A stretch of 39,121 nt of DNA from an uncultured Coriobacteriaceae bacterium. GTDB taxonomy: Bacteria; Actinomycetota; Coriobacteriia; Coriobacteriales; CADBOM01. Shown here piece after piece: positions 2,673 through 25,570 of the stretch (the first letter of the stretch is position 1; the number at the start of each line of letters is the position of its first letter). The stretch is from positions 1-39,121 of the forward strand of contig CADBOM010000084.1 of assembly GCA_902796325.1 (NCBI GenBank), in the 5' to 3' direction. The notes beneath the pieces are model-generated. The model made no database searches. It was not told the origin of the DNA and saw only the letters and a list, made by a program, of their open reading frames with translations. A program made the translations under genes and the position numbers.

Positions 2673-2946
2673 TTAAATCACAGGGTGCTCTGTGCAGTTT
2701 TGCGCAAGGCTGATGTGCATTGATGTGCAACTCGGTGCAAGGCTGGCAAAGTCCATGGGCGCCCTTGGATCTAACGAGGAGAAAGACGGCCGTCGCATTA
2801 GGGCCGGGCAAAATGGCTCTGGGGTCCTGGTGGTTTGGAGGACCACCCGGGCACATGGATTTTAGGCTTGTTGAACGGCGGCCGAGGATAGCGCACTGAG
2901 AATGTGCGCGGAGAAAAAGCAACCGATTAGGAGGGGCGGGACGAAC

Positions 2947-3759
2947 ATGGCTGAAGAACTTCTAACCATATCCGATCTTACTGCTGGAACGGAAGACAAG
3001 ACGATTCTCCACGATGTTAACCTAACCATCGGAAGGGGAGAGAGCCACGTGCTCATGGGCCCGAACGGAACGGGCAAATCCACGCTTGGCCATGTGATCA
3101 TGGGAGACCCCGTGTACAAGGTCGCGAGCGGGAAGATCGTCTTCGATGGAGAGGACATCACTGAGAAAACAGCCGATAAGCGCTCGCTCGCCGGCATCTT
3201 CCTTTCCTATCAGGCACCGGTGGAGGTTCCGGGAGTTCCCCTGTACACGTTCCTTCGCACCATCAGCCAGATGCGTCCCGAGCTCAAGATGACGCCGAAG
3301 AACTTCCGCAAGAGGGTCTCGGAGCTCGCAGCTCAGCTGAGCATCGACGAGGAGTTCCTCGGACGCGACCTCAACGTTGGATTCTCCGGAGGCGAGAAGA
3401 AGAAGATCGAGATGCTGCAGCTTCTGCTTCTGCAGCCGAAGCTCGCCATCCTCGACGAAACCGACTCCGGCCTCGATGTCGATGCCCTCTCGGTGGTATC
3501 CAGGGCCATCTCGAGCTATATGAGCGATTACAACGGATCCATTCTGCTGATTACCCACAACACCAGGATTCTGGAGCACGTCGACGTGGACAAGACCCAC
3601 GTTATGACCCACGGCCACATCGTGGAGACAGGCGATGCAAGCCTGATCGCCACCATCGAGCAGCAGGGCTTCGAGAGCTATGAGAAGGAAGCTGCCGCCG
3701 AGCTGGCCGATGAGGCAGAGGGAGCTCCCGAGGGTGCAGACGCCGTGGCGGAGCACTAG
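2947..3759 (+). CDS. sufC: Fe-S cluster assembly ATPase SufC
   Basis: ABC-type ATPase of the SUF complex. It binds SufB and SufD and powers cluster assembly on the SufBCD scaffold in the cytoplasm. The Walker A motif GPNGTGKST is at residues 38-46, the ABC signature reads GFSGGEKKK, Walker B is LAILDETDSGLD and the H-loop lies in LITHNTR. The 270-residue length is slightly above the usual 250 because of an acidic Ala/Glu-rich C-terminal tail. ATG 2947 was chosen over the upstream ATG at 2902 because AGGAGGGG (2929-2936) sits just before it. It is the first gene of sufCBDSU-rrf2. Confidence 0.97.
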   Translation: MAEELLTISDLTAGTEDKTILHDVNLTIGRGESHVLMGPNGTGKSTLGHVIMGDPVYKVASGKIVFDGEDITEKTADKRSLAGIFLSYQAPVEVPGVPLYTFLRTISQMRPELKMTPKNFRKRVSELAAQLSIDEEFLGRDLNVGFSGGEKKKIEMLQLLLLQPKLAILDETDSGLDVDALSVVSRAISSYMSDYNGSILLITHNTRILEHVDVDKTHVMTHGHIVETGDASLIATIEQQGFESYEKEAAAELADEAEGAPEGADAVAEH

Positions 3760-3780
3760 GAAAGCGTGGAGGCAAGACCG

Positions 3781-5187
3781 ATGTCAAAGACAAAAGTACA
3801 AGATGTCGATCGCTCGATGTACGACTTCATCAAGCCTGAGGAAGGGTACGAGCGATTCGAAGATGGACTTACTCCCGAAATCGTGCGAGCGATTTCGGAG
3901 AAGAAGGACGAGCCAGACTGGATGCTGGAGCTGAGGCTCAAGGGCTTGAAGAAGTACCACGAGATGTCGATGCCGGCTAACTGGGGCCCTTCGATCGAAG
4001 GATTGGATATGGACCACATATCCACCTATGTCTCGCCGAAGACCGAGCAGGCTTCGAGTTGGGATGATGTTCCCGAAGATGTGAAGGACACGTTCGAGAA
4101 GCTGGGAATCCCCGAGGCGGAGCGCTCGTACCTCGCTGGAGTTGGTGCTCAGTACGACTCCGAGCTGGTCTATCACAGCATGCAGGACAGCGCGGCCAAG
4201 CAGGGCGTTGTGTACTCCGGTATCGAAGAGGCGCTGCACGGCCCGTTCGAGGACATGATCCGCGAGCACTTCATGAAGCTCGTTCCAATTACCGACCACA
4301 AGTTCGCAGCCCTTCACGCTGCGGTTTGGAGCGGCGGTTCTTTCGTGTACGTGCCAGAGGGCGTTCAGATGGAGTACCCGCTGCAGAGCTACTTCAGGCT
4401 TAATGCAAAGGGAGCGGGACAGTTCGAGCACACGCTCATCATCGTGGAGCCAGGTGCCAACCTGCACTTCATAGAAGGTTGCTCGGCACCTAAGTACAAC
4501 GTTGCCAACCTGCATGCAGGTTGCGTGGAGCTGTTCGTTGGCAAGGGTGCAAGGCTTCGCTACTCCACCATCGAGAACTGGTCGAAGAACATGTACAACC
4601 TCAACACCAAGCGCTCGAGAATCGAGGAGGATGGCGTTATGGAGTGGGTGTCGGGTTCGTTCGGAAGCCATGTCTCCTACCTTTATCCAACCACAATCTT
4701 GGCTGGCGACCGCTCCTCCTGCGAATTCACTGGAATCACGTTCGCGGGCAAGACCCAGAACCTCGACACTGGCTGCAAGGTCATTCTCAACGGCAAGGAC
4801 ACCAAGGCCTCGGTTTCCACGAAGTCGCTTTCGAAGGACGGCGGAATCTCCACGTTCAGGAGCTCCATCGTGGTTAACAAGCATGCCGAGAACGCGCTTG
4901 CCACGGTTTCGTGCCAGTCGCTCATGATCGACGACATCAGCCGATCCGACACCATCCCGGCAATGGATGTGCGCTGCCAGAGCGCAAGCGTTGGCCACGA
5001 GGCAACGATCGGAAGCATTTCCGACGACACGGTGTTCTACCTCATGAGCCGTGGATGCTCGGAAGACGAGGCTCGCACCATGGTGGTAAACGGATTCGCT
5101 AATCCGATTTCCAAAGAGCTGCCTCTCGAATACGCAGCCGAAATGAACAATCTGATCAAACTCGAGATGGAAGGGGCAATCGGATGA
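3781..5187 (+). CDS. sufB: Fe-S cluster assembly scaffold SufB
   Basis: Scaffold subunit of SufBCD on which nascent Fe-S clusters form, 468 residues. The N-terminal region has the family WMLELRLKGLKKY block, and the C-terminal half is the beta-helix core conserved in SufB. Typical motifs seen are YSTIENWSKNMYNLNTKR, CKVILNGKDTKASVSTKSLS and SVGHEATIGSISDDTVFYLMSRG. The start ATG follows GGAGG (3768-3772). The gap to sufC is about 20 bp, and the stop overlaps the sufD start by 4 bp (ATGA), so translation is probably coupled. Confidence 0.97.
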   Translation: MSKTKVQDVDRSMYDFIKPEEGYERFEDGLTPEIVRAISEKKDEPDWMLELRLKGLKKYHEMSMPANWGPSIEGLDMDHISTYVSPKTEQASSWDDVPEDVKDTFEKLGIPEAERSYLAGVGAQYDSELVYHSMQDSAAKQGVVYSGIEEALHGPFEDMIREHFMKLVPITDHKFAALHAAVWSGGSFVYVPEGVQMEYPLQSYFRLNAKGAGQFEHTLIIVEPGANLHFIEGCSAPKYNVANLHAGCVELFVGKGARLRYSTIENWSKNMYNLNTKRSRIEEDGVMEWVSGSFGSHVSYLYPTTILAGDRSSCEFTGITFAGKTQNLDTGCKVILNGKDTKASVSTKSLSKDGGISTFRSSIVVNKHAENALATVSCQSLMIDDISRSDTIPAMDVRCQSASVGHEATIGSISDDTVFYLMSRGCSEDEARTMVVNGFANPISKELPLEYAAEMNNLIKLEMEGAIG

Positions 5188-6338
5188 CGGAATTCCAAAC
5201 TCTGGAGCACGTCAACGTGCCTCCTGCGCAGACATGGAACTATCTGCACACCAATGTTATAGCAATGAAGGTCCCGGCCCCCGACCAGGTTCGCGCGGAA
5301 TATATGGAGCAAACTTCTCCGGCGGTTACCTGTTTTGCCGCATGTCCTGCTTCGATTGATGCGGTGGAGCAGCTTCCGGAAGAGCTCTTGGCAATCGAGA
5401 CCGGTGTGGGTGACGACGCCAACGAGTGGATTGCCGCGTCTGCAACGGAAACCACGTTGGTAAACGTTCCCGCGGGCACCAACCTCGAGCGCCCGATAGT
5501 AGTGGACCTATCGGGAGACGGAGTGGCCGTAGCCCATACGGGTGTCTCCATCGGCAAGGGCGCGAGGGCCACGATCGTGGTAATCGCAAGCGCCTCCCAC
5601 AAGGTGGAGACGGTGTCGGCTAGTCTCCTCAGGGTCCTCATCGAAGAAGACGCCCATGCCGATATCTTCGAGCTGGTTGCCATGGGTAACCCCAAGCAGC
5701 ATATCGAGGGTGTGGGAATCGAGTGCAGGAAAGACGCGAGTGTGAACATCCAGCAATACGCTCTCTCCGCCCAGACTTCCGCCGTGGGCCTCGCGGCCAA
5801 CCTCGTTGGCGACAGATCGTCGCTCACGCTGTCGCTCCACTACCTGGTGGGTTCTCAGCAAACACTCGACTGCAATCACATCGTGAGGCAGCGCGGTCGC
5901 AACACTCGCTGCGTGATCGATGAGTCTGGAGTGCTTTCCGACAAGGCTACCAAGACCCTCAAGGCCACCATCGACCTCATCAGGGGATGCAAGGGCTCCA
6001 AGGGCCGCGAGCAGGAGACCGTGGTGCTTGCCGGCGACGACGTGGTGAACAAGACGCTCCCCGTGATTCTCTGCGATGAGGAGGAAGTGCAGGGAGACCA
6101 TGGAGCCACGATAGGATCGATGAGCGCGGAGCAGCTGCAGTACCTTCGCAATCGTGGGCTTACCGAGGAGCAGGCAGAGGACCTGTTCAGGCATGCAGTT
6201 GCAGATGGTGCGGTTATTCACGCCCCAACCCCAAAGGCCCGCAAGGTTGCCTTGCAGGCCGTGGCACAGATCTTCGGCAAGGACATTGCGGAAGATCTTG
6301 CAGAAATCGTTCAGCCGAGCTTTGGCTTCGACGAGTAG
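5184..6338 (+). CDS. sufD: Fe-S cluster assembly protein SufD
   Basis: SufB paralogue of 384 residues that pairs with SufB in the SufBCD complex. The C-terminal beta-helix region has the shared motif GDHGATIGSMSAEQLQYLRNRG followed by EEQAEDLFRHA, as in SufB/SufD proteins. The first half is divergent, as is normal for SufD. It starts within the sufB stop (ATGA overlap) and ends 24 bp before sufS. The motif and its place between sufB and sufS make the SufD assignment firm even though the N-terminus is poorly conserved. Confidence 0.93.
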   Translation: MTEFQTLEHVNVPPAQTWNYLHTNVIAMKVPAPDQVRAEYMEQTSPAVTCFAACPASIDAVEQLPEELLAIETGVGDDANEWIAASATETTLVNVPAGTNLERPIVVDLSGDGVAVAHTGVSIGKGARATIVVIASASHKVETVSASLLRVLIEEDAHADIFELVAMGNPKQHIEGVGIECRKDASVNIQQYALSAQTSAVGLAANLVGDRSSLTLSLHYLVGSQQTLDCNHIVRQRGRNTRCVIDESGVLSDKATKTLKATIDLIRGCKGSKGREQETVVLAGDDVVNKTLPVILCDEEEVQGDHGATIGSMSAEQLQYLRNRGLTEEQAEDLFRHAVADGAVIHAPTPKARKVALQAVAQIFGKDIAEDLAEIVQPSFGFDE

Positions 6339-6362
6339 CGAAAGAGCAAAGGAGAATTTCAA

Positions 6363-7643
6363 ATGTCTCAGGATACACAGGGAGAAGCAAAGGCGGTGAA
6401 GGCAAGGGAAGGCACGCTCGATATCGCTGCCAACCCGTTCAAGGCCGATTTCCCGCTTTTGGTAAAGCACCCGGAGCTCACATTCTTGGATAGCGCCGCA
6501 ACGGCTCAGAGGCCGGAGGTTGTGCTGCAGGCCGAGAGAACTTTCTACGAGACCATGAATGCCAACCCGCTTCGTGGGCTCTACAAGCTTTCCGTGGAGG
6601 CCACGCAGGCTATCGCGGATACCCGCAAGCACATCGCCGAATTCATCGGAGCCAGCGATCCCGACGAGGTGATCTTCACCCGCAATGCGTCGGAATCCCT
6701 CAACCTTATCGCGCATTCGCTGGGAGGCTCGATTCTCCGCAAGGGAGACGAGGTTGCCATCACGATAATGGAGCACCATTCGAACCTCATCCCCTGGCAG
6801 CAGATATGCCGCCACGTTGGTGCGACTCTGGTGTACATCAGGCCAGATGCCAATGGCCATATAAGCCAGGAGGAGATAGAGGCCAAGATCGGACCCAAGA
6901 CCAAGATCGTGTCATCGACCCAGCTGTCTAACGTCTTGGGCGTTATTCCGCCGATCAAGGCCATGTCGGACAGGGCTCACGAGGTGGGCGCCTACATGGT
7001 TGTGGACGGGGCTCAGTCCGTGCCGCACATGAGAGTGAACGTGGAAGAGCAGGGCATAGACCTTCTTGCCTTCTCCGCCCACAAGCTTGGCGGACCAATG
7101 GGAATCGGAGTGCTGTGGGGCAAGCGAGACATCCTGGAGAGCATGCCGCCGTTCCTAACCGGTGGAGAGATGATTGACAGCGTAACCGAGGACGATGCCG
7201 TGTGGGCACCAATTCCGGCTAAGTTCGAAGCCGGCACCCAGGATGCCGCTGGAATCTTCGCAACCGATGCCGCCATCTCGTACATCGAGTCGCTCGACCG
7301 CGATGCTCTTGAGAAGCGCGAGCACGAGCTTACGGCATACCTAGCCAAGAGGCTGATGGAGCTCCCGTACGTTACCGTGCTTGGGTCTCAGGATCCGGAG
7401 GATCACCTAGCCGCCGTTTCGTTCAACGTTGGCGATGTCCATCCGCACGACGTGTCCTCGATCCTCGACATGAGCGACGTGGCCATCAGGGCCGGGCATC
7501 ATTGCGCTCAACCGCTGCTCACTTGGATGGGAATCTCGAGCTGCTGCCGCGCTTCGGTGGCTTTCTACAATGACAAGGCGGATATCGACAACCTGATCGA
7601 TGCTCTCGAGAATGTTTGGAAGGTGTTCAACATTGGCGACTGA
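6363..7643 (+). CDS. sufS: Cysteine desulfurase SufS
   Basis: PLP-dependent group II cysteine desulfurase that takes sulfur from cysteine as a persulfide and passes it to SufU, 426 residues. The PLP-binding lysine is Lys241 in FSAHKLGGPMGIG, and the catalytic cysteine is Cys381 in the RAGHHCAQPL motif typical of SufS. The conserved SSCCRASVAFYN block follows. The N-terminus has about 20 extra residues before the family start (FKADFPLL). The ribosome site AAAGGAG precedes the ATG. Its last codons overlap the TTG start of sufU by 11 nt. Confidence 0.97.
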   Translation: MSQDTQGEAKAVKAREGTLDIAANPFKADFPLLVKHPELTFLDSAATAQRPEVVLQAERTFYETMNANPLRGLYKLSVEATQAIADTRKHIAEFIGASDPDEVIFTRNASESLNLIAHSLGGSILRKGDEVAITIMEHHSNLIPWQQICRHVGATLVYIRPDANGHISQEEIEAKIGPKTKIVSSTQLSNVLGVIPPIKAMSDRAHEVGAYMVVDGAQSVPHMRVNVEEQGIDLLAFSAHKLGGPMGIGVLWGKRDILESMPPFLTGGEMIDSVTEDDAVWAPIPAKFEAGTQDAAGIFATDAAISYIESLDRDALEKREHELTAYLAKRLMELPYVTVLGSQDPEDHLAAVSFNVGDVHPHDVSSILDMSDVAIRAGHHCAQPLLTWMGISSCCRASVAFYNDKADIDNLIDALENVWKVFNIGD

Positions 7644-8076
7644 CAATCTTTATAACGCGCAGTTCATGGATCATGTTGCGCACCCGTATTACAAGTACAA
7701 GATGGAGGACGAGACCTACTCCCATCAGGGTGTGAACCCGTCGTGTGGAGACGATCTCACCCTTCAGATCAAGATCGGCGACGATGGCAAGATCGAAGAG
7801 GCTTCGTATCAAGGACATGGATGCGCCATCTCGCAGGCATCCGCCGATATGATGAGCGACCTCATGATCGACAAGACTCCAGAAGAGGCAATGGAGCTCT
7901 GCAAGCTCTTCGGAGATATGGTGCGTGGCGAGCAGAAGGACCCGGAAGAGTTGGATAAGCTCGACGAGGCCTCCATGCTGCAGTCCATTTCGAGAATGCC
8001 GGCTCGCGTTAAGTGTGCCGAGCTTGCATGGCGTACTCTCGAGGAAATATTTAAGGAGCAGGGCATAGCCCATTAG
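7633..8076 (+). CDS. sufU: Sulfur-transfer protein SufU
   Basis: Zinc-dependent sulfurtransferase of the Gram-positive SUF system that accepts persulfide from SufS, 147 residues. The zinc/sulfur site residues are present: Cys38 and Asp40 in NPSCGDD, Cys64 in GHGCAIS and Cys128 in VKCAELAW. The chosen start is TTG 7633, which overlaps the sufS stop and has AAGGTG 7 nt upstream. The open frame continues further upstream within sufS but without family similarity, and the next ATG (7666) would cut into the conserved N-terminal helix. Confidence 0.94.
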   Translation: MATDNLYNAQFMDHVAHPYYKYKMEDETYSHQGVNPSCGDDLTLQIKIGDDGKIEEASYQGHGCAISQASADMMSDLMIDKTPEEAMELCKLFGDMVRGEQKDPEELDKLDEASMLQSISRMPARVKCAELAWRTLEEIFKEQGIAH

Positions 8077-17062: not shown

Positions 17063-18745
17063 CTACGATACCATTTCGCGGGCGTATAAGGCGGCTCCAA
17101 TTGCCCCGCACAGCTGCGCATGCTCGCTTATCACGAGCTTCGAATTCAGCTTGTCCTCCAAAACTCTGACCAGGCTGGTGTTTTTGGCAACACCTCCGGT
17201 CATCATGTAGTTTGGAGTGCCTCCAACTCGGTTCACCAGGCCGAGGGTTCGGGTTGCAACCGCCTTGTCAAGACCGTAGACGATGTCGTTTGCAGCCTTG
17301 TTCTGGGCTATGAGCGACACCACTTCCGACTCCGCGAACACAGAGCATGTGTTTGAGATCGTTATATCTTCCTTATGCGAGAGTCCCATGGTGGCAAATT
17401 CGTCCAGGCTCACCTGCATGGTGTTGGCCATCATCTCGAAGAAGCGTCCGGTGCCTGCGGCGCATTTGTCGTTCATGGCGAAGTTCGTAACGTTCCCATC
17501 CTCGTCGAGCGAGATAACCTTGCTGTCCTGGCCACCTATGTCAATGACGGTTCTGATGCTGGGGTCAAGGAAATGCGCTCCACGCGCGTGGCAACTTATC
17601 TCTGTTACGGATTTGTCGCCAATCTCTATGGCAGCCCTTCCGTATCCGGTCGTTACCGTTGCATCTATATCTTCTCTAGTGAGGCCTGTTCCCTCCAGTG
17701 CCATGTCAAGTGCCTTGTCAGCGCTTATCGCCGCTCCAGCTCCGGTTGGAATGATGGTTTTGGCTGCGATGTTCAGGTCTTTGTCCAAGATCACAACATC
17801 GGTGCTGGTAGATCCGCTGTCAATTCCGGCCACGTATCCTCTTGTCATTTGAATCTCCCTGTTGTCTGCGCTGCCAGGCTGCTCTTCGAACCCCAGGCTT
17901 TCGTTGAATGCCTCCAGCCTTGTCTTTAGCTGGCCCGTGCTCTGGGTTGTGTAGTCGGACTCTATCTTCAAAATCGGCACATCTACCGAGTCTTTTATCT
18001 GGGCGTACTCGAAGCTGTAGAAGTCGCAGAACTTAACGGTGTGGTAGATGATTCCCCTTAGGTTGGGGTCTTCATAGAGCCTGCGCCTGCCTGTTGGGTC
18101 TGCCATTCTCATGCATGGCGTTTGCGCGAAGATTTCGCCCGCATACCATTGCAGCAGCTCGTCCATGCCCATGTCTGCAGGTGGTATCACGTTGCCAACT
18201 CTGCGATTGTTCACGCAGGTTTCGTTTACCACCTCGATGCCCATGGTGTCCTTCACCATGTCGAACAGCTGCGTTCCCATCCTTGCGCCCAGCACTTCGA
18301 TGTGGGGGAGGGATGTTTCGTGCTTCTCATGGAACGCATCGTAGAATTTCTCGATGCTAAAGCTCGTTCCCTTGTATTCCCCGTAGGCAGAGATCAGCCT
18401 CTTTAGCTCGTCTACCAGCATGTCCTTTGCACAGGATTTGTAGCAATGCAGCATGTCTGTGATGTAGAGGAAGTCCACCTTGCCGGTTGCGGCTATCACA
18501 TCGTAGACGCTGCGCATGACATCGCAGCAATCCACGAGAATTAGCTCGTGAACTTGCCCGGTGAGAACCTTCTCCAGCACCGATTTTCCAAAGCCGCAGA
18601 TATTGGGCCCGCAGTATTGCTCGGCTAGATCGAAGTTGTCCGGCATGTCGTTTAGGGTTTGACAATCTGCTCCCATGGCCGAGAGCAGCTCCACCGGTGT
18701 GTATTTGCACACATAGTACGTTGGGCACTGTATAGAGCACTGCAT
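17063..18745 (-). CDS. 2-hydroxyacyl-CoA dehydratase-like subunit fused to its activase
   Basis: 560 residues in two parts. Residues 1-295 are a dehydratase-family subunit (HgdA/HgdB/BcrB/C-like) rich in cysteine (Cys13 in a CKYTPVELLSAMG motif, and Cys45, 50, 73, 74, 101, 105, 240). Residues 303-560 are a BcrAD/BadFG-type ASKHA ATPase: phosphate loop GIDSGSTSTD, then IDIGGQDSK, Cys428 in NDKCAAGTGRF, Cys467 in SNTCSVFAESE, and TGGVAKN. In known activases those two cysteines hold the [4Fe-4S] cluster at the dimer interface, and ATP hydrolysis drives low-potential electron transfer to the dehydratase. The two are normally separate proteins. ATG 18745 overlaps the upstream stop (ATGA) with GGAG upstream. 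The substrate is unknown; a reductase of the double-cubane-cluster type is also possible. Confidence 0.85.
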   Translation of the reverse strand: MQCSIQCPTYYVCKYTPVELLSAMGADCQTLNDMPDNFDLAEQYCGPNICGFGKSVLEKVLTGQVHELILVDCCDVMRSVYDVIAATGKVDFLYITDMLHCYKSCAKDMLVDELKRLISAYGEYKGTSFSIEKFYDAFHEKHETSLPHIEVLGARMGTQLFDMVKDTMGIEVVNETCVNNRRVGNVIPPADMGMDELLQWYAGEIFAQTPCMRMADPTGRRRLYEDPNLRGIIYHTVKFCDFYSFEYAQIKDSVDVPILKIESDYTTQSTGQLKTRLEAFNESLGFEEQPGSADNREIQMTRGYVAGIDSGSTSTDVVILDKDLNIAAKTIIPTGAGAAISADKALDMALEGTGLTREDIDATVTTGYGRAAIEIGDKSVTEISCHARGAHFLDPSIRTVIDIGGQDSKVISLDEDGNVTNFAMNDKCAAGTGRFFEMMANTMQVSLDEFATMGLSHKEDITISNTCSVFAESEVVSLIAQNKAANDIVYGLDKAVATRTLGLVNRVGGTPNYMMTGGVAKNTSLVRVLEDKLNSKLVISEHAQLCGAIGAALYAREMVS

Positions 18746-20010
18746 CAGATTGCTCCAATCATCTCTAGGAACGCGCTTAGTCTCGTGGAGGTCTGGCCCT
18801 CTCCGCCGTGGCTGCGGTCGCAAGCATCTCCGTCGAGGATCAGGCATGGGATTCCGGCTTCTTCGAACCTCTTCTTCGCAAGCTGGGAGATTCCAATGGT
18901 GTGCTTGCATCCCCAGTGGTTGAACCACACCACGCCGTCGGACCCGGCATCCTTCGCGTGCTTGATGCCAATATCGATCCTGCGGCTACCGGTGCCATTG
19001 AGGCTGTTGTACACCATGCGCTGCGCCATTCCCCTATAAGGGTTATCGGTTTCGAAGTCTGCGCTGCACGTTTGCCCGATTTCGTTGCCAACGATCTGAG
19101 CGCTCTCGTTGAATGCCAGCAGGCTGTATACGGAGTCCGACCAGTATGGCAGGGCGTGCATCCAATAGATGTGCTTGCCCTTCTTTGGAGGGGCTGCCAC
19201 AACATCTTCCAAGAGCATCTGGGTGTACTTTTCCTCCTGCTCGGTTCCCAGCAGGATGTTGTTCGACATCGCGCAATACAAGGGAGACACAAGGTCGGTG
19301 AGAATCTGCCTGTCGGCTCTCAGTTCCTGGAACCTCTGGTAGTTGTTCAGCGTTCTCTTGCTGCGTGCAACACGTTCGCTCAAGGCATCGTCATCGATCT
19401 TCTTTCCGGTGACTTCCTCCAAGAACGTCTTGAGCTCTCTCAGCTGACGCTCCACGTATGCAACGCTGCTTTCGTCTTGCCTTATCGGCACGTCGATGTA
19501 GAACAACGGAACCTGGAACACCTGCTGCATGCGCCTGAAGCTCACGAGGTTTGCGTCGCATATTAGATTGGTGTGCACGATGCACCGCGGCGCTGGCATG
19601 AGCTTGGCCACTGCAGCGCCTGCAAAAATCTTGTGATAGCTGCAGAAGGTCTCGGAAATACCATCCGAATCCATGATATCCAGCATCTCTCGCTCGGCGT
19701 GCGATGCAGATATATATGAAGAGAACGCCTCTGCGTTATAGGGGTTTAGCCCCACCTCTTCGAGAAGCTCGCAGGCGGTGAAGATGCTCACAACCGCGGA
19801 ATTCTGCGGCTCTATGAGGGGCTTCATCATGACGTCCATCATCATGGGAGCCAAATATCTATCGGCTGGTATGAGGCGTTTGTCTGGGAAATGCTTCATC
19901 TTGATTCCCATGGCACCCCAACCAATCTCCAGCACCCTGCGTGCAGCCTTGTGATGTCCGCTGTCGTTGAGATTGTTGATAACGTTTCCGAAGATGTCTA
20001 TCGGGTTCAA
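18745..20010 (-). CDS. 2-hydroxyacyl-CoA dehydratase/benzoyl-CoA reductase-like subunit
   Basis: 421 residues, HgdB/BcrB-type Fe-S subunit. The C-terminal family signature is clear: DGVVWFNHWGCKHTIGIS, then GIPCLILDGDACDR and TRLSAFLEMIGAI. About ten cysteines are present (in TACELL, FCSYHK, PRCIVH, LICDAN, LYCAMS, QTCSAD, WGCKHT and others), enough for one or more Fe-S clusters. Translation appears to start at a TTG (20010), since AGGAGGG lies 9 nt upstream and no ATG is available there. It is the first gene of a three-gene operon and should form a heterodimer with the N-terminal half of the next product, activated by that protein's C-terminal half. The exact substrate cannot be read from sequence. 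Confidence 0.87.
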   Translation of the reverse strand: MNPIDIFGNVINNLNDSGHHKAARRVLEIGWGAMGIKMKHFPDKRLIPADRYLAPMMMDVMMKPLIEPQNSAVVSIFTACELLEEVGLNPYNAEAFSSYISASHAEREMLDIMDSDGISETFCSYHKIFAGAAVAKLMPAPRCIVHTNLICDANLVSFRRMQQVFQVPLFYIDVPIRQDESSVAYVERQLRELKTFLEEVTGKKIDDDALSERVARSKRTLNNYQRFQELRADRQILTDLVSPLYCAMSNNILLGTEQEEKYTQMLLEDVVAAPPKKGKHIYWMHALPYWSDSVYSLLAFNESAQIVGNEIGQTCSADFETDNPYRGMAQRMVYNSLNGTGSRRIDIGIKHAKDAGSDGVVWFNHWGCKHTIGISQLAKKRFEEAGIPCLILDGDACDRSHGGEGQTSTRLSAFLEMIGAI

Positions 20011-22104: not shown

Positions 22105-24306
22105 ATGAGACGAATAGCTGTTTACGGAAAAGGCGGCATTGGAAAATCCACGATAAGCGCCAACCTATCTGCTGCCTTCGCGAAGTCGGGGAGAAGCGTT
22201 CTCCAGATTGGATGCGATCCAAAGCACGACTCCACAAGATTTTTGCTTCATGGGCTGAGGCTCACAACCGTGCTCGACTACATGCGTGTTACAAAGCCTT
22301 TGGATTACAAGCTTGACGATATCCTTGCGCGCGGCTATCTGGGAATCGGCTGCGTGGAAGCCGGAGGTCCGAAGCCTGGCGTTGGGTGTGCCGGACGTGG
22401 AATCATCAGCACCTTCGAGCTGCTAGACCAGTTCAAGCTCAAAGACAACTACGACATCACCATCTATGACGTTCTTGGCGATGTTGTTTGCGGAGGATTT
22501 GCGGTTCCCATTAGGCGCGAGTACGCCGATACGATCTTGATCGTCACATCGGGCGAGTTCATGGCGCTCTACGCGGCAAACAATATCTTGCGTGGAATAC
22601 GCAATTACGACGGTAGCGAGAAGCGAGTTGCCGGGATTGTCTACAATCAGCGAAACGTCGAGGGCGAGGACGAGCGTGTAGAGCGTTTTGCCAAGGCGGT
22701 GGATCTTCCGATTTTCGCGAAGGTGCCCAGAAGCGACGCTTTCACGCGAGCCGAGCACGACAACATGACCGCCATGGAGCAGGGGACGAGCCCCGCTATA
22801 TGCTCCATATTCACAGAGATGGCGGCAACCTTGCAGGGCGATTGTCCTCTTTACGAGGCCAAGCCACTAACGGACGAGGAGCTGGAGCAAACAGTTCTTG
22901 GTACAAATATACAGAGCCAGCGGGCGGCAAACGATGAGATGGGCGAGGCAACAGTCATATCAAAAGCGGCTGTTCCGGAAGAGGTGGATGTTGCGAACCC
23001 CAATCGCTATCTATCGAAGAACATGGTCCGAAGCGAGCCCCGGCACGGATGTGCGTTCAATGGAGCCATGAGCTCGGCGGTGCACATAAAGGATGCCGTT
23101 ATCCTGGCCCACTCGCCCAAGAGCTGCGCATATATCACATACCAGTCGGTTAGCTCGACTGGACGTAGGAAGCTGTTCGAACGCGGTGCGCTTCTCCCGG
23201 TTGCCCTTTCACCAAACATCGACTGCACCGAGATGGGCCAGCCCGAGATAGTGTTCGGCGGCATGGAGAAGCTGGAGTCCAAGGTAAGGCTCATAAAGCA
23301 GCAGCGTCCTAAGGCAATCGTGATAGTTAGCGCTTGCCCTGCTGGGATTATCGGTGACGACATAGATAGGATGAAGGAGCTCTCGGAACCCGGGATGCCA
23401 ATCGTTCCCATCAAAGCGGATGGCAACATGTCGGGAGATTTTCAGCAGGGGCTGTTCCTCTCATATCTGTCGCTTGCCAGAAACCTCATCCGCAAGGATG
23501 TGGATGAGGTGCCGGGAACAGTGAATATCGTTGCCGAAAAGGCTCTTGTAACCAATGCTCAGCAAAACTACGAGCTCATGAGCGGATTCCTAGACCGTAT
23601 GGGCGTAAAGGTTAACTGCCGTTTCATATACGACACCACAACCGAGGCTCTTCAGAACTTCTGCACAGCCGAACTCAACCTGCCTGCATATAGCGATTAC
23701 ACTGCAAAGACCCTGAGGAGGTTCTTCGAGGACGAGTATGGCTCGAAGTTCTACGACAGGGGATTCCCGATAGGGTATGACGAGACGTGCACGTGGCTTC
23801 GCGAGATTGGCGATTACTTTGGAAAGCCGGACGTGGCCGAGCAGATTATCGACGATAACAAGCAGAGCTACCAGCAGGCCGTGGAGGAGCTCAAGCCAAT
23901 TCTTAGCGGGAAGAAGCTCATGGTGATCACGTTCAATTCCGGGTTGGATTGGATTTTGAAAACCGCGCTGGATATTGGAATGAAAATCGTGAAGATAGGC
24001 GCACTGGATTACTCGCAGGACGAGGGGTTCAGGTCTAGGCTGGGCGTGGACTTGCCCGTGGAGCTGGAGTACAACCCTGCAAATCGGGATTCCGACCTCA
24101 AGAAATACAAACCAGATGTGCTGCTTGCCAACTACTCTTCATCGGTGTCCAATGGTGTGCCTGTTTCCGACACCATTCCAATGTGCCCCGATGTTGGTTT
24201 TGAATCCGGACTAGTGCTTGCTAGACGCTGGGCAAGACTGATTCAGATGAGCGCGAAGGGGGAGTGGGAGCAAGATGAACACCTTTTTGAAAAATATTAC
24301 GCCTGA
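22105..24306 (+). CDS. Nitrogenase-like reductase: NifH domain fused to NifD-like domain
   Basis: 733 residues. Residues 1-265 are a full NifH/BchL/CfbC-type Fe protein: P-loop GKGGIGKST (9-17), switch [10 protein letters not shown], Cys95 in GVGCAGRG and Cys129 in [11 protein letters not shown], the cluster ligands shared by the homodimer. After a linker (265-305), residues 306-733 are a NifD/BchN-like domain with Cys316 (HGCAFNGAM), Cys341 (SPKSCAY) and Cys411 ([11 protein letters not shown]) at the spacing of the P-cluster cysteines of NifD. No cysteine aligns with the FeMo-cofactor ligand: the matching stretch reads [14 protein letters not shown]. In known systems the Fe protein is separate and must dock and release, so a covalent fusion is odd. 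The product is predicted to reduce an unidentified substrate with ATP. There is no good ribosome site. The last 32 nt overlap the next gene. Confidence 0.88.
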
Positions 24307-25570
24307 TAGCCTCTCCGGCATAATCTTTGCTCTCGAGGGGGTAAAGCGATCGCTGGTGATTCTCAACGGTCCCACCGGATGCAAGTTCTACAATGCCGCT
24401 ACCTCGGATTCTCAGGTGATAAGACAGCGCGAATTCGATCCGCTGAACTTTCCTCCCGTGTGGTATTTCGGGCAGCCACGCGTTCCGTGCACCTATCTGG
24501 ACAATGCGGACTATGTGTATGGCAGCGAGGAGAAGCTAACCGAGGTTTTGGAATATATGCGGGATAACGTGAGCTTCGATGTTGTGGCTATCGTGAACTC
24601 GCCGGGTGCATCTCTTATCGGAGACGACATCAGGGGGATAGCCGAGTCCGTGCTTGGAAAGGGCAAGCCGCTTGTAACGTTGGAGACGCCGGGATTCTCG
24701 AGTGACGTATGCCACGGCCATGAGACGGCGTGCTTGGAGCTATTGAAACAGGTTCCACCGAAGACCGGGCAAAGCGTGATCCCAAAGACGGTGAACATAT
24801 TGGGCCTCTCGCTGTTCCAGAAAAACTATATGGGCGATGTGCTCGAGATCAAGCGCCTTATGGAGCTATGCGGTATAGAGGTCAACTGCTTCCTTTGCGG
24901 TAGCGGAAGCATGGACGAGGTCTCGAAGATCCCTAGTGCAGCCCTGAACGTCGTGATCCACCCAGAATATGGCATGCAGACCGCGGATTACCTGGAGCGC
25001 ACTTATGGCACGCCATATTATGTTTGCCCCGGACCACCGATAGGCTACAAGGCAACCGAAAAGATGATGCTCGATCTTTGCAATGCCCTTGGTTGCAACT
25101 CCGCGGCGTTTTTGGAAGATAGCGAGCGCAAGAGGGCAAGGTCGTACGTGTTCGTGTCGAGAGTGAATTCCTTCACGGGAATGCCGAAGGCGGTTCCGTA
25201 TTCCATCGAGGGAACTTGCTCCGAGCTATATGCATATATTGGCTTTCTAACTGGATACTTTGGAATGGTTCCGGTGTGCGCATCTGTGCTAAGCGAACAG
25301 AGTTCCGTGTTCCACGACAAGCTGGTGGAGATGCTCGGCAACCTGGGATTTCCCCATGCTCTGGAGAGGGATATCTTGGACACCAAGGCCGACCTTGTAT
25401 TTGGAAGCGGCAACACGATAGCAGCTCTCAAGCTCAAGGGAATGCGCTTCTCTGGAATAGAGACGTCTCTTCCAACCATCGGGTACTACAACGTGGTGCC
25501 GAAGACCTATTTGGGAACTAACGGGGCATTGCTGCTAACAGAGCTGGTGCTAAACGGCCTCATGTACTGA
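24275..25570 (+). CDS. Nitrogenase component 1-like NifK/BchB-type subunit
   Basis: 431 residues, oxidoreductase/nitrogenase component 1 family. Typical features are [10 protein letters not shown] with Cys36 (equivalent of the NifK cysteine in the second P-cluster position), [15 protein letters not shown] (the cysteine normally just before this motif is absent), and the later blocks [18 protein letters not shown] and [11 protein letters not shown]. The N-terminal cysteine of NifK is also missing. With three cysteines from the partner this gives 3+1 ligands, the pattern of a single [4Fe-4S] cluster as in dark protochlorophyllide reductase, which uses three Cys and one Asp. ATG 24275 has GGGAG 5 nt upstream and overlaps the preceding gene by 32 nt, indicating coupled, stoichiometric synthesis. 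No nifB, nifE, nifN, nifV or Mo transport gene is in the window. Confidence 0.86.

Follow-up and report, generated by a model that had tools for sequence, protein, structure and literature searches.

In the nitrogenase superfamily, the Fe protein is a dimer that holds one [4Fe-4S] cluster and, through ATP hydrolysis, passes electrons to a cluster located at the interface between D/K-type subunits. In nitrogenase and in the known nitrogenase-like enzymes, this Fe protein docks on its partner and leaves it in every electron cycle. Nitrogenase itself has 3 + 3 cluster cysteines plus the cofactor and NifEN works with a free NifH, while DPOR (BchLNB) and COR (BchXYZ), which also have a separate Fe protein, contain a single [4Fe-4S] site made of three Cys from the N/Y-type chain and one Asp or Cys from the B/Z-type chain and lack ligands for the FeMo-cofactor. 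IsrHDK is likewise nitrogenase-like and devoid of cofactor ligands; its H is separate, its cysteines are distributed as one in D and three in K, and it works with a radical SAM protein. CfbCD has three Cys in its D-type chain; CfbD forms homodimers and has no NifK counterpart (PMC11423573). MarHDK uses nitrogenase metalloclusters (PMC12552129). Finally, a fused nifH-nifE gene followed by nifN was mentioned, as 'data not shown', by Dos Santos et al. (2012; PMC3464626).

Here we describe a locus with this last gene layout in a gut-type bacterium (draft genome in 266 contigs, 89% complete). The whole stretch of DNA analysed, of 39,121 nucleotides, is referred to as the window, and it contains a fused gene (HE, with an H and an E domain) and a partner gene (N), with the following features, which come from reading frames, Pfam, homologues, alignments and an AlphaFold model:

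22105..24306, + strand: HE, Fe-protein (NifH-type) domain, linker and component-1 (NifD/E-type) domain, 733 aa (ORFs, Pfam, homologues)
22105..22908, + strand: H domain, residues 1-268, with P-loop, switches and [4Fe-4S] cysteines (Pfam, alignment)
22387-22389, + strand: H-domain cluster Cys95 (alignment)
22489-22491, + strand: H-domain cluster Cys129 (alignment)
22909..23010, + strand: linker, about residues 269-302, ~35 residues, predicted to be disordered (AlphaFold model, homologue alignment)
23011..24303, + strand: E domain, residues 303-733, without equivalents of alphaC275 or alphaH442 (Pfam, alignment)
23050-23052, + strand: E-domain cluster-ligand Cys316 (ligand alignment)
23125-23127, + strand: E-domain cluster-ligand Cys341 (ligand alignment)
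23335-23337, + strand: E-domain cluster-ligand Cys411 (ligand alignment)
24275..25570, + strand: N, NifK/N-type component-1 subunit, 431 aa (ORF, Pfam)
24380-24382, + strand: single conserved N ligand, Cys36 (ligand alignment)
24275..24306, + strand: overlap of HE and N, 32 nt (ORF coordinates)

The initial annotation of this DNA had proposed that a NifH-type ATPase and a NifD-like domain make up one polypeptide, and this is confirmed, as the frame at 22105-24306 runs uninterrupted and a single protein matches two Pfam families, Fer4_NifH (residues 2-264, E 1.3e-92) and Oxidored_nitro (residues 316-713, E 3.6e-68); N matches Oxidored_nitro too (E 4.6e-49). The complete P-loop (GKGGIGKST) and the cluster cysteines Cys95 and Cys129 that it reported are indeed kept in nine aligned fused homologues, as is most of the switch II region, position 123 being I in the two rows of family f33. 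The overlap with the NifK-like gene also has the length it gave and suggests translational coupling, and similar overlaps are present in several homologues.

A draft in so many contigs could have joined two genes through an assembly error or a frameshift, but we give this explanation practically no weight and have rejected it because the same fusion is complete and free of stops in eight other genomes, at about 33-61% identity. These relatives come from Clostridia, from a second class of Firmicutes and from Desulfobacterota. They are G001 (full-length identity 62%), an Oscillospiraceae MAG (G676/L025, WQSH01000093.1), G006 and G039 from its order, G408 and G617 (f33) from another class of the same phylum, and G712 and G753, whose phylum, Desulfobacterota, also includes a Desulfamplus MAG. 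A further genome, G002, has the E domain and the partner gene on a contig that ends before the H domain. When the N profile was run on 598 genomes (400 of the sampled class and 198 Desulfobacterota), clade-level matches, meaning about 470 bits or more with the next ones at 173 bits or less, appeared in at least 4 of the 400 and at least 2 of the 198, all of them fusion carriers, and in these two samples each such N gene adjoins an HE fusion. No unfused member of the clade was found among the matches listed, and at least two of the 35 genomes in the order of G408 have HE-N. HE-N is therefore rare, patchy and, wherever seen complete, always fused. Apparent matches in which an H is followed by a D with stops in between were found in G114, G560, G461, G388, G039 (contig C99), G118, G126 and G164. 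Those in the first three genomes were rejected as fusions because the nif-type genes there are separate, and those in G388 and on contig C99 of G039 because separate genes of the Mar type are involved.

In the AlphaFold model of HE (mean pLDDT 76), the two domains are joined by residues 268-314 at pLDDT < 50. According to the homologue alignment, the linker varies both in sequence and in length (35-83 residues between homologous points) and the flanking domains align throughout. We propose from the model that the linker is flexible and would keep the ATPase on its own catalytic half. Foldseek matched the first part of HE to Fe proteins, its second part to MoFe alpha and MarD chains, and N to MarK, which is its best solved-structure match, to NifK/NifN and to DPOR subunit B; this search confirms the folds and does not separate the families.

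The cluster ligands were read from one alignment of all component-1 sequences, with nine E domains and eight N subunits. Cys occupies the alphaC62, alphaC88 and alphaC154 columns in 9/9 E domains (Cys316, Cys341 and Cys411 in the window), and in N the only Cys is that of the betaC95 column (8/8 aligned; Cys36 in the window), which is the column of BchB Asp36 and BchZ Cys35; the betaC70 position is empty in N and betaC153 is Pro or Ser. HE-N has thus three plus one cysteines only, instead of the six (3 alpha + 3 beta) of a P-cluster. The FeMo-cofactor ligands alphaCys275 and alphaHis442 are found in none of the nine aligned E domains, their columns being occupied by Tyr/Asn/His/Asp and Val/Ala/Ile/Leu/Thr, respectively. 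Judging from these columns, the ligand set is that of DPOR and COR. The term 'NifD-like' used initially is right in that this is a component-1 domain, but the label is loose given the missing cofactor ligands and the DPOR/COR cluster-ligand pattern. With 3 + 1 cysteines, no cofactor ligands and no full P-cluster, HE-N would most likely be a [4Fe-4S]-only reductase acting on an organic substrate, and both N2 reduction and Mar-type thioether chemistry seem unlikely, because the cofactor ligands are absent and the ligand pattern is of the DPOR/COR type.

For the trees, annotated plasmids supplied reference sequences (bch of Roseobacter and Thiodictyon, nif of Methylococcus and a Treponema pair), to which local Nif and Mar-type pairs and partial MarD/MarK stretches from PDB alignments were added. 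All nine E domains fall together in a clade of their own, and so do all eight N subunits (support 100/100 for each), both apart from the Nif, Mar, DPOR and COR references, DPOR and COR being represented by only two bch operons and one COR. A tree placing the fusion inside a family of known function had been named as the other outcome that would undo the proposal, and the component-1 domains fall inside none of the families tested, namely Nif, Mar, DPOR and COR; long branches occur in both trees. The E clade joins the NifD/E and MarD side (90/87) rather than BchN/BchY, so the DPOR-like ligand set, as far as these sequences go, could be convergent. Of the fused H domains, seven cluster together in the H tree (96/90) and the f33 pair is placed elsewhere, although a single fused H clade is not rejected (p-AU 0.18).

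In its family scores, the H domain resembles CfbC (309.7 bits) as much as NifH (305 bits), yet both values are below the curated cut-offs (402 and 394), as are those against BchL (213, cut-off 345) and BchX (192, cut-off 331). HE-N also stays far below the models of BchN (41 bits, cut-off 420), BchB (85, cut-off 490) and BchZ (45, cut-off 529), and the E domain below that of CfbD (26 bits, cut-off 268). Unlike CfbD, moreover, HE has a K-type partner. The best model scores of the E domain are those of NifE-type and general alpha-chain models. Membership among true nitrogenases and in Mar was rejected on ligands and trees, and membership in Isr on ligands, as the tree contains no Isr sequence.

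We consider it probable (about 0.68) that HE and N together form an ATP-driven reductase within the nitrogenase superfamily, encoded by two genes and DPOR/COR-like in its mechanism class. The H domains would pair and bind one [4Fe-4S] cluster through Cys95 and Cys129, and would pass low-potential electrons upon ATP hydrolysis to a second [4Fe-4S] cluster held by three Cys from the E domain and one from N. As there are no cofactor ligands, these electrons would go straight to an organic substrate bound directly beside the cluster, without a FeMo-type cofactor. The initial annotation had suggested that a tether implies a fixed stoichiometry and a different docking cycle, which is a reasonable inference: the tether would fix H:E:N at 1:1:1 and, as each E:N half would need an H2 dimer for docking and contributes a single H, only one docking site could be filled per heterotetramer, which would host one H2 dimer at a time, either in half-site operation or with H shared between complexes. 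That one Fe-protein dimer per heterotetramer is feasible follows from the 1:1 Fe protein:MoFe complex seen in nitrogenase under turnover (PDB 7ut9). It is in this sense that we infer the cluster type, the electron path, the oligomer and the half-site operation. A further-reaching version, in which HE-N represents a distinct class of the superfamily with a built-in ATPase, strict half-site delivery (one H2 per (EN)2) and a substrate that known members do not use, as in a new anaerobic reduction of a tetrapyrrole or corrinoid, is tentative and less likely than not.

Other functions have to be weighed against this reductase. The NifE-type scores of the E domain recall NifEN, and HE-N could be a scaffold or maturase that builds or modifies the metal cluster of another enzyme, with the tethered H as reductase or insertase; its client could be sought on contig C24 of the same genome, where a NifB-like gene accompanies a Mar-type pair. 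Nevertheless, those genes have no linkage to the HE-N operon, betaC70 and betaC153 are missing from N, there is no cofactor-binding Cys, and carriers such as G753 and the f33 genomes have quite different neighbours; NifEN itself belongs to a different clade and no nif genes lie near HE-N. We find this alternative improbable, and slightly more so a reduction of sulfur compounds in the manner of Mar or of isethionate reductase (Isr). The match of N to MarK, the Mar-type genes in the same genome and the radical SAM partner of some members, which recalls IsrB, speak for the latter, but the tree excludes membership with MarD/MarK, the alphaC275 column is not Cys in HE, the 3 + 1 set differs from that of Mar and is the reverse of the 1 + 3 of Isr, and no sulfur-metabolism genes adjoin the operon in the window. 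The least probable of these three is that HE-N reductively activates a metalloenzyme or corrinoid (compare the ATP-driven activation of methyl-coenzyme M reductase and 2-hydroxyacyl-CoA dehydratase) and is no small-molecule reductase. Its variable gene context would fit general housekeeping or repair, and the window has, a short way upstream, a 2-hydroxyacyl-CoA dehydratase/activase pair, which is also a low-potential system driven by ATP; however, this dehydratase has its own activase domain and is not kept as a neighbour in other carriers.

As for the substrate of the proposed reductase, the operon stands alone in the window, separated by about 480 and 470 bp from the Fe-ADH and the SNF-family transporter that flank it, and no pigment genes were found among the window neighbours scanned. 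The absence of nif, chlorophyll and F430 genes reported before is correct for the surroundings of the operon and does not extend to the genome, which elsewhere contains not only a separate NifH but also a Mar-type component-1 pair with a NifB-like gene. The neighbours differ in every lineage of the window's group (an M3 peptidase in G001 and G002; primase, sigma factor and a two-component system in G006; an EAL protein and PFOR in G039), and these neighbourhoods are uninformative on the substrate. A consistent pattern occurs in f33 only, where both genomes, of two genera, have, directly upstream, a radical SAM gene of the SPASM type followed in our listing by a chelatase-type gene with AAA/VWA domains; the latter, truncated by the contig end in G408, has as best NCBIfam match the putative cobaltochelatase TIGR02442 (554 bits, below cut-off). 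A different radical SAM gene is located 21 bp upstream of HE-N in G753. CobN is present in 4 of the 9 carriers, including both of f33, there away from the operon, and absent from the other four and from the window genome (89% complete), which lacks BchH as well. In the f33 order, 7 of 35 genomes have CobN and both HE-N carriers are among them, for which the chance is 7x6/(35x34) = 0.035; since many genomes are incomplete, this co-occurrence is suggestive only. The chelatase and radical SAM context of f33, together with CobN, weakly favours, for one branch at least, a substrate of the tetrapyrrole type, and a tetrapyrrole or similar conjugated ring as the substrate class in general is a guess that we would not call probable.

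It had also been stated that no characterised enzyme has this layout. In the open-access literature, which our search covered to the exclusion of subscription papers, we indeed found no characterised fused enzyme, but the layout as such was mentioned in 2012. The fusion of Dos Santos et al. (PMC3464626), which they placed in Firmicutes, Deltaproteobacteria (and Archaea), is likely to be the HE-N clade; their single sentence gives no sequences, ligands, tree or function. This work adds the definition of the clade, its 3 + 1 ligands, the observation that all members seen in full are fused, and what the tether would imply for stoichiometry. An Fe protein that is unable to diffuse away would be a natural test of whether dissociation is needed, and HE would provide donor and acceptor in one chain for structural studies and single-turnover experiments, within what would be a simple two-gene reductase from a well-bounded, uncharacterised clade.

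Several other systems were noted in the course of the analysis. The window contains, about 14 kb upstream of HE-N, a SUF-type operon (2902-8076, + strand; ABC ATPase, two SufBD, class-V aminotransferase and NifU-N protein) and, nearer to it, two overlapping 2-hydroxyacyl-CoA dehydratase-type genes (17066-20010, - strand), one of which encodes a 621-aa protein with an activase ATPase domain fused to its HGD-D part, being also an ATP-driven, ATPase-fused low-potential system. The separate nifH of the same genome (L004, contig C53, 873-4696) scores over the curated cut-off, is flanked by genes for a cysteine synthase and a PatB-type C-S lyase, and pairs in the tree with a Treponema nifH that is likewise beside cysK. 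On contig C24 (L031, 3-3284), two component-1 genes come after the NifB-like gene, and their products cluster with MarD and MarK; this may be a system of the Mar type. On the Subdoligranulum variabile plasmid OY725846.1 (L104, 4263-5855), which is unannotated, a 530-aa open frame has a divergent NifH-type domain at residues 247-506, preceded by about 245 residues that match no Pfam family. The opposite fusion also exists, as in family f4 (L109, 11329-13950; L110, 366-2804) two component-1 halves share a frame of 813-874 aa, which a separate Fe-protein gene overlaps.
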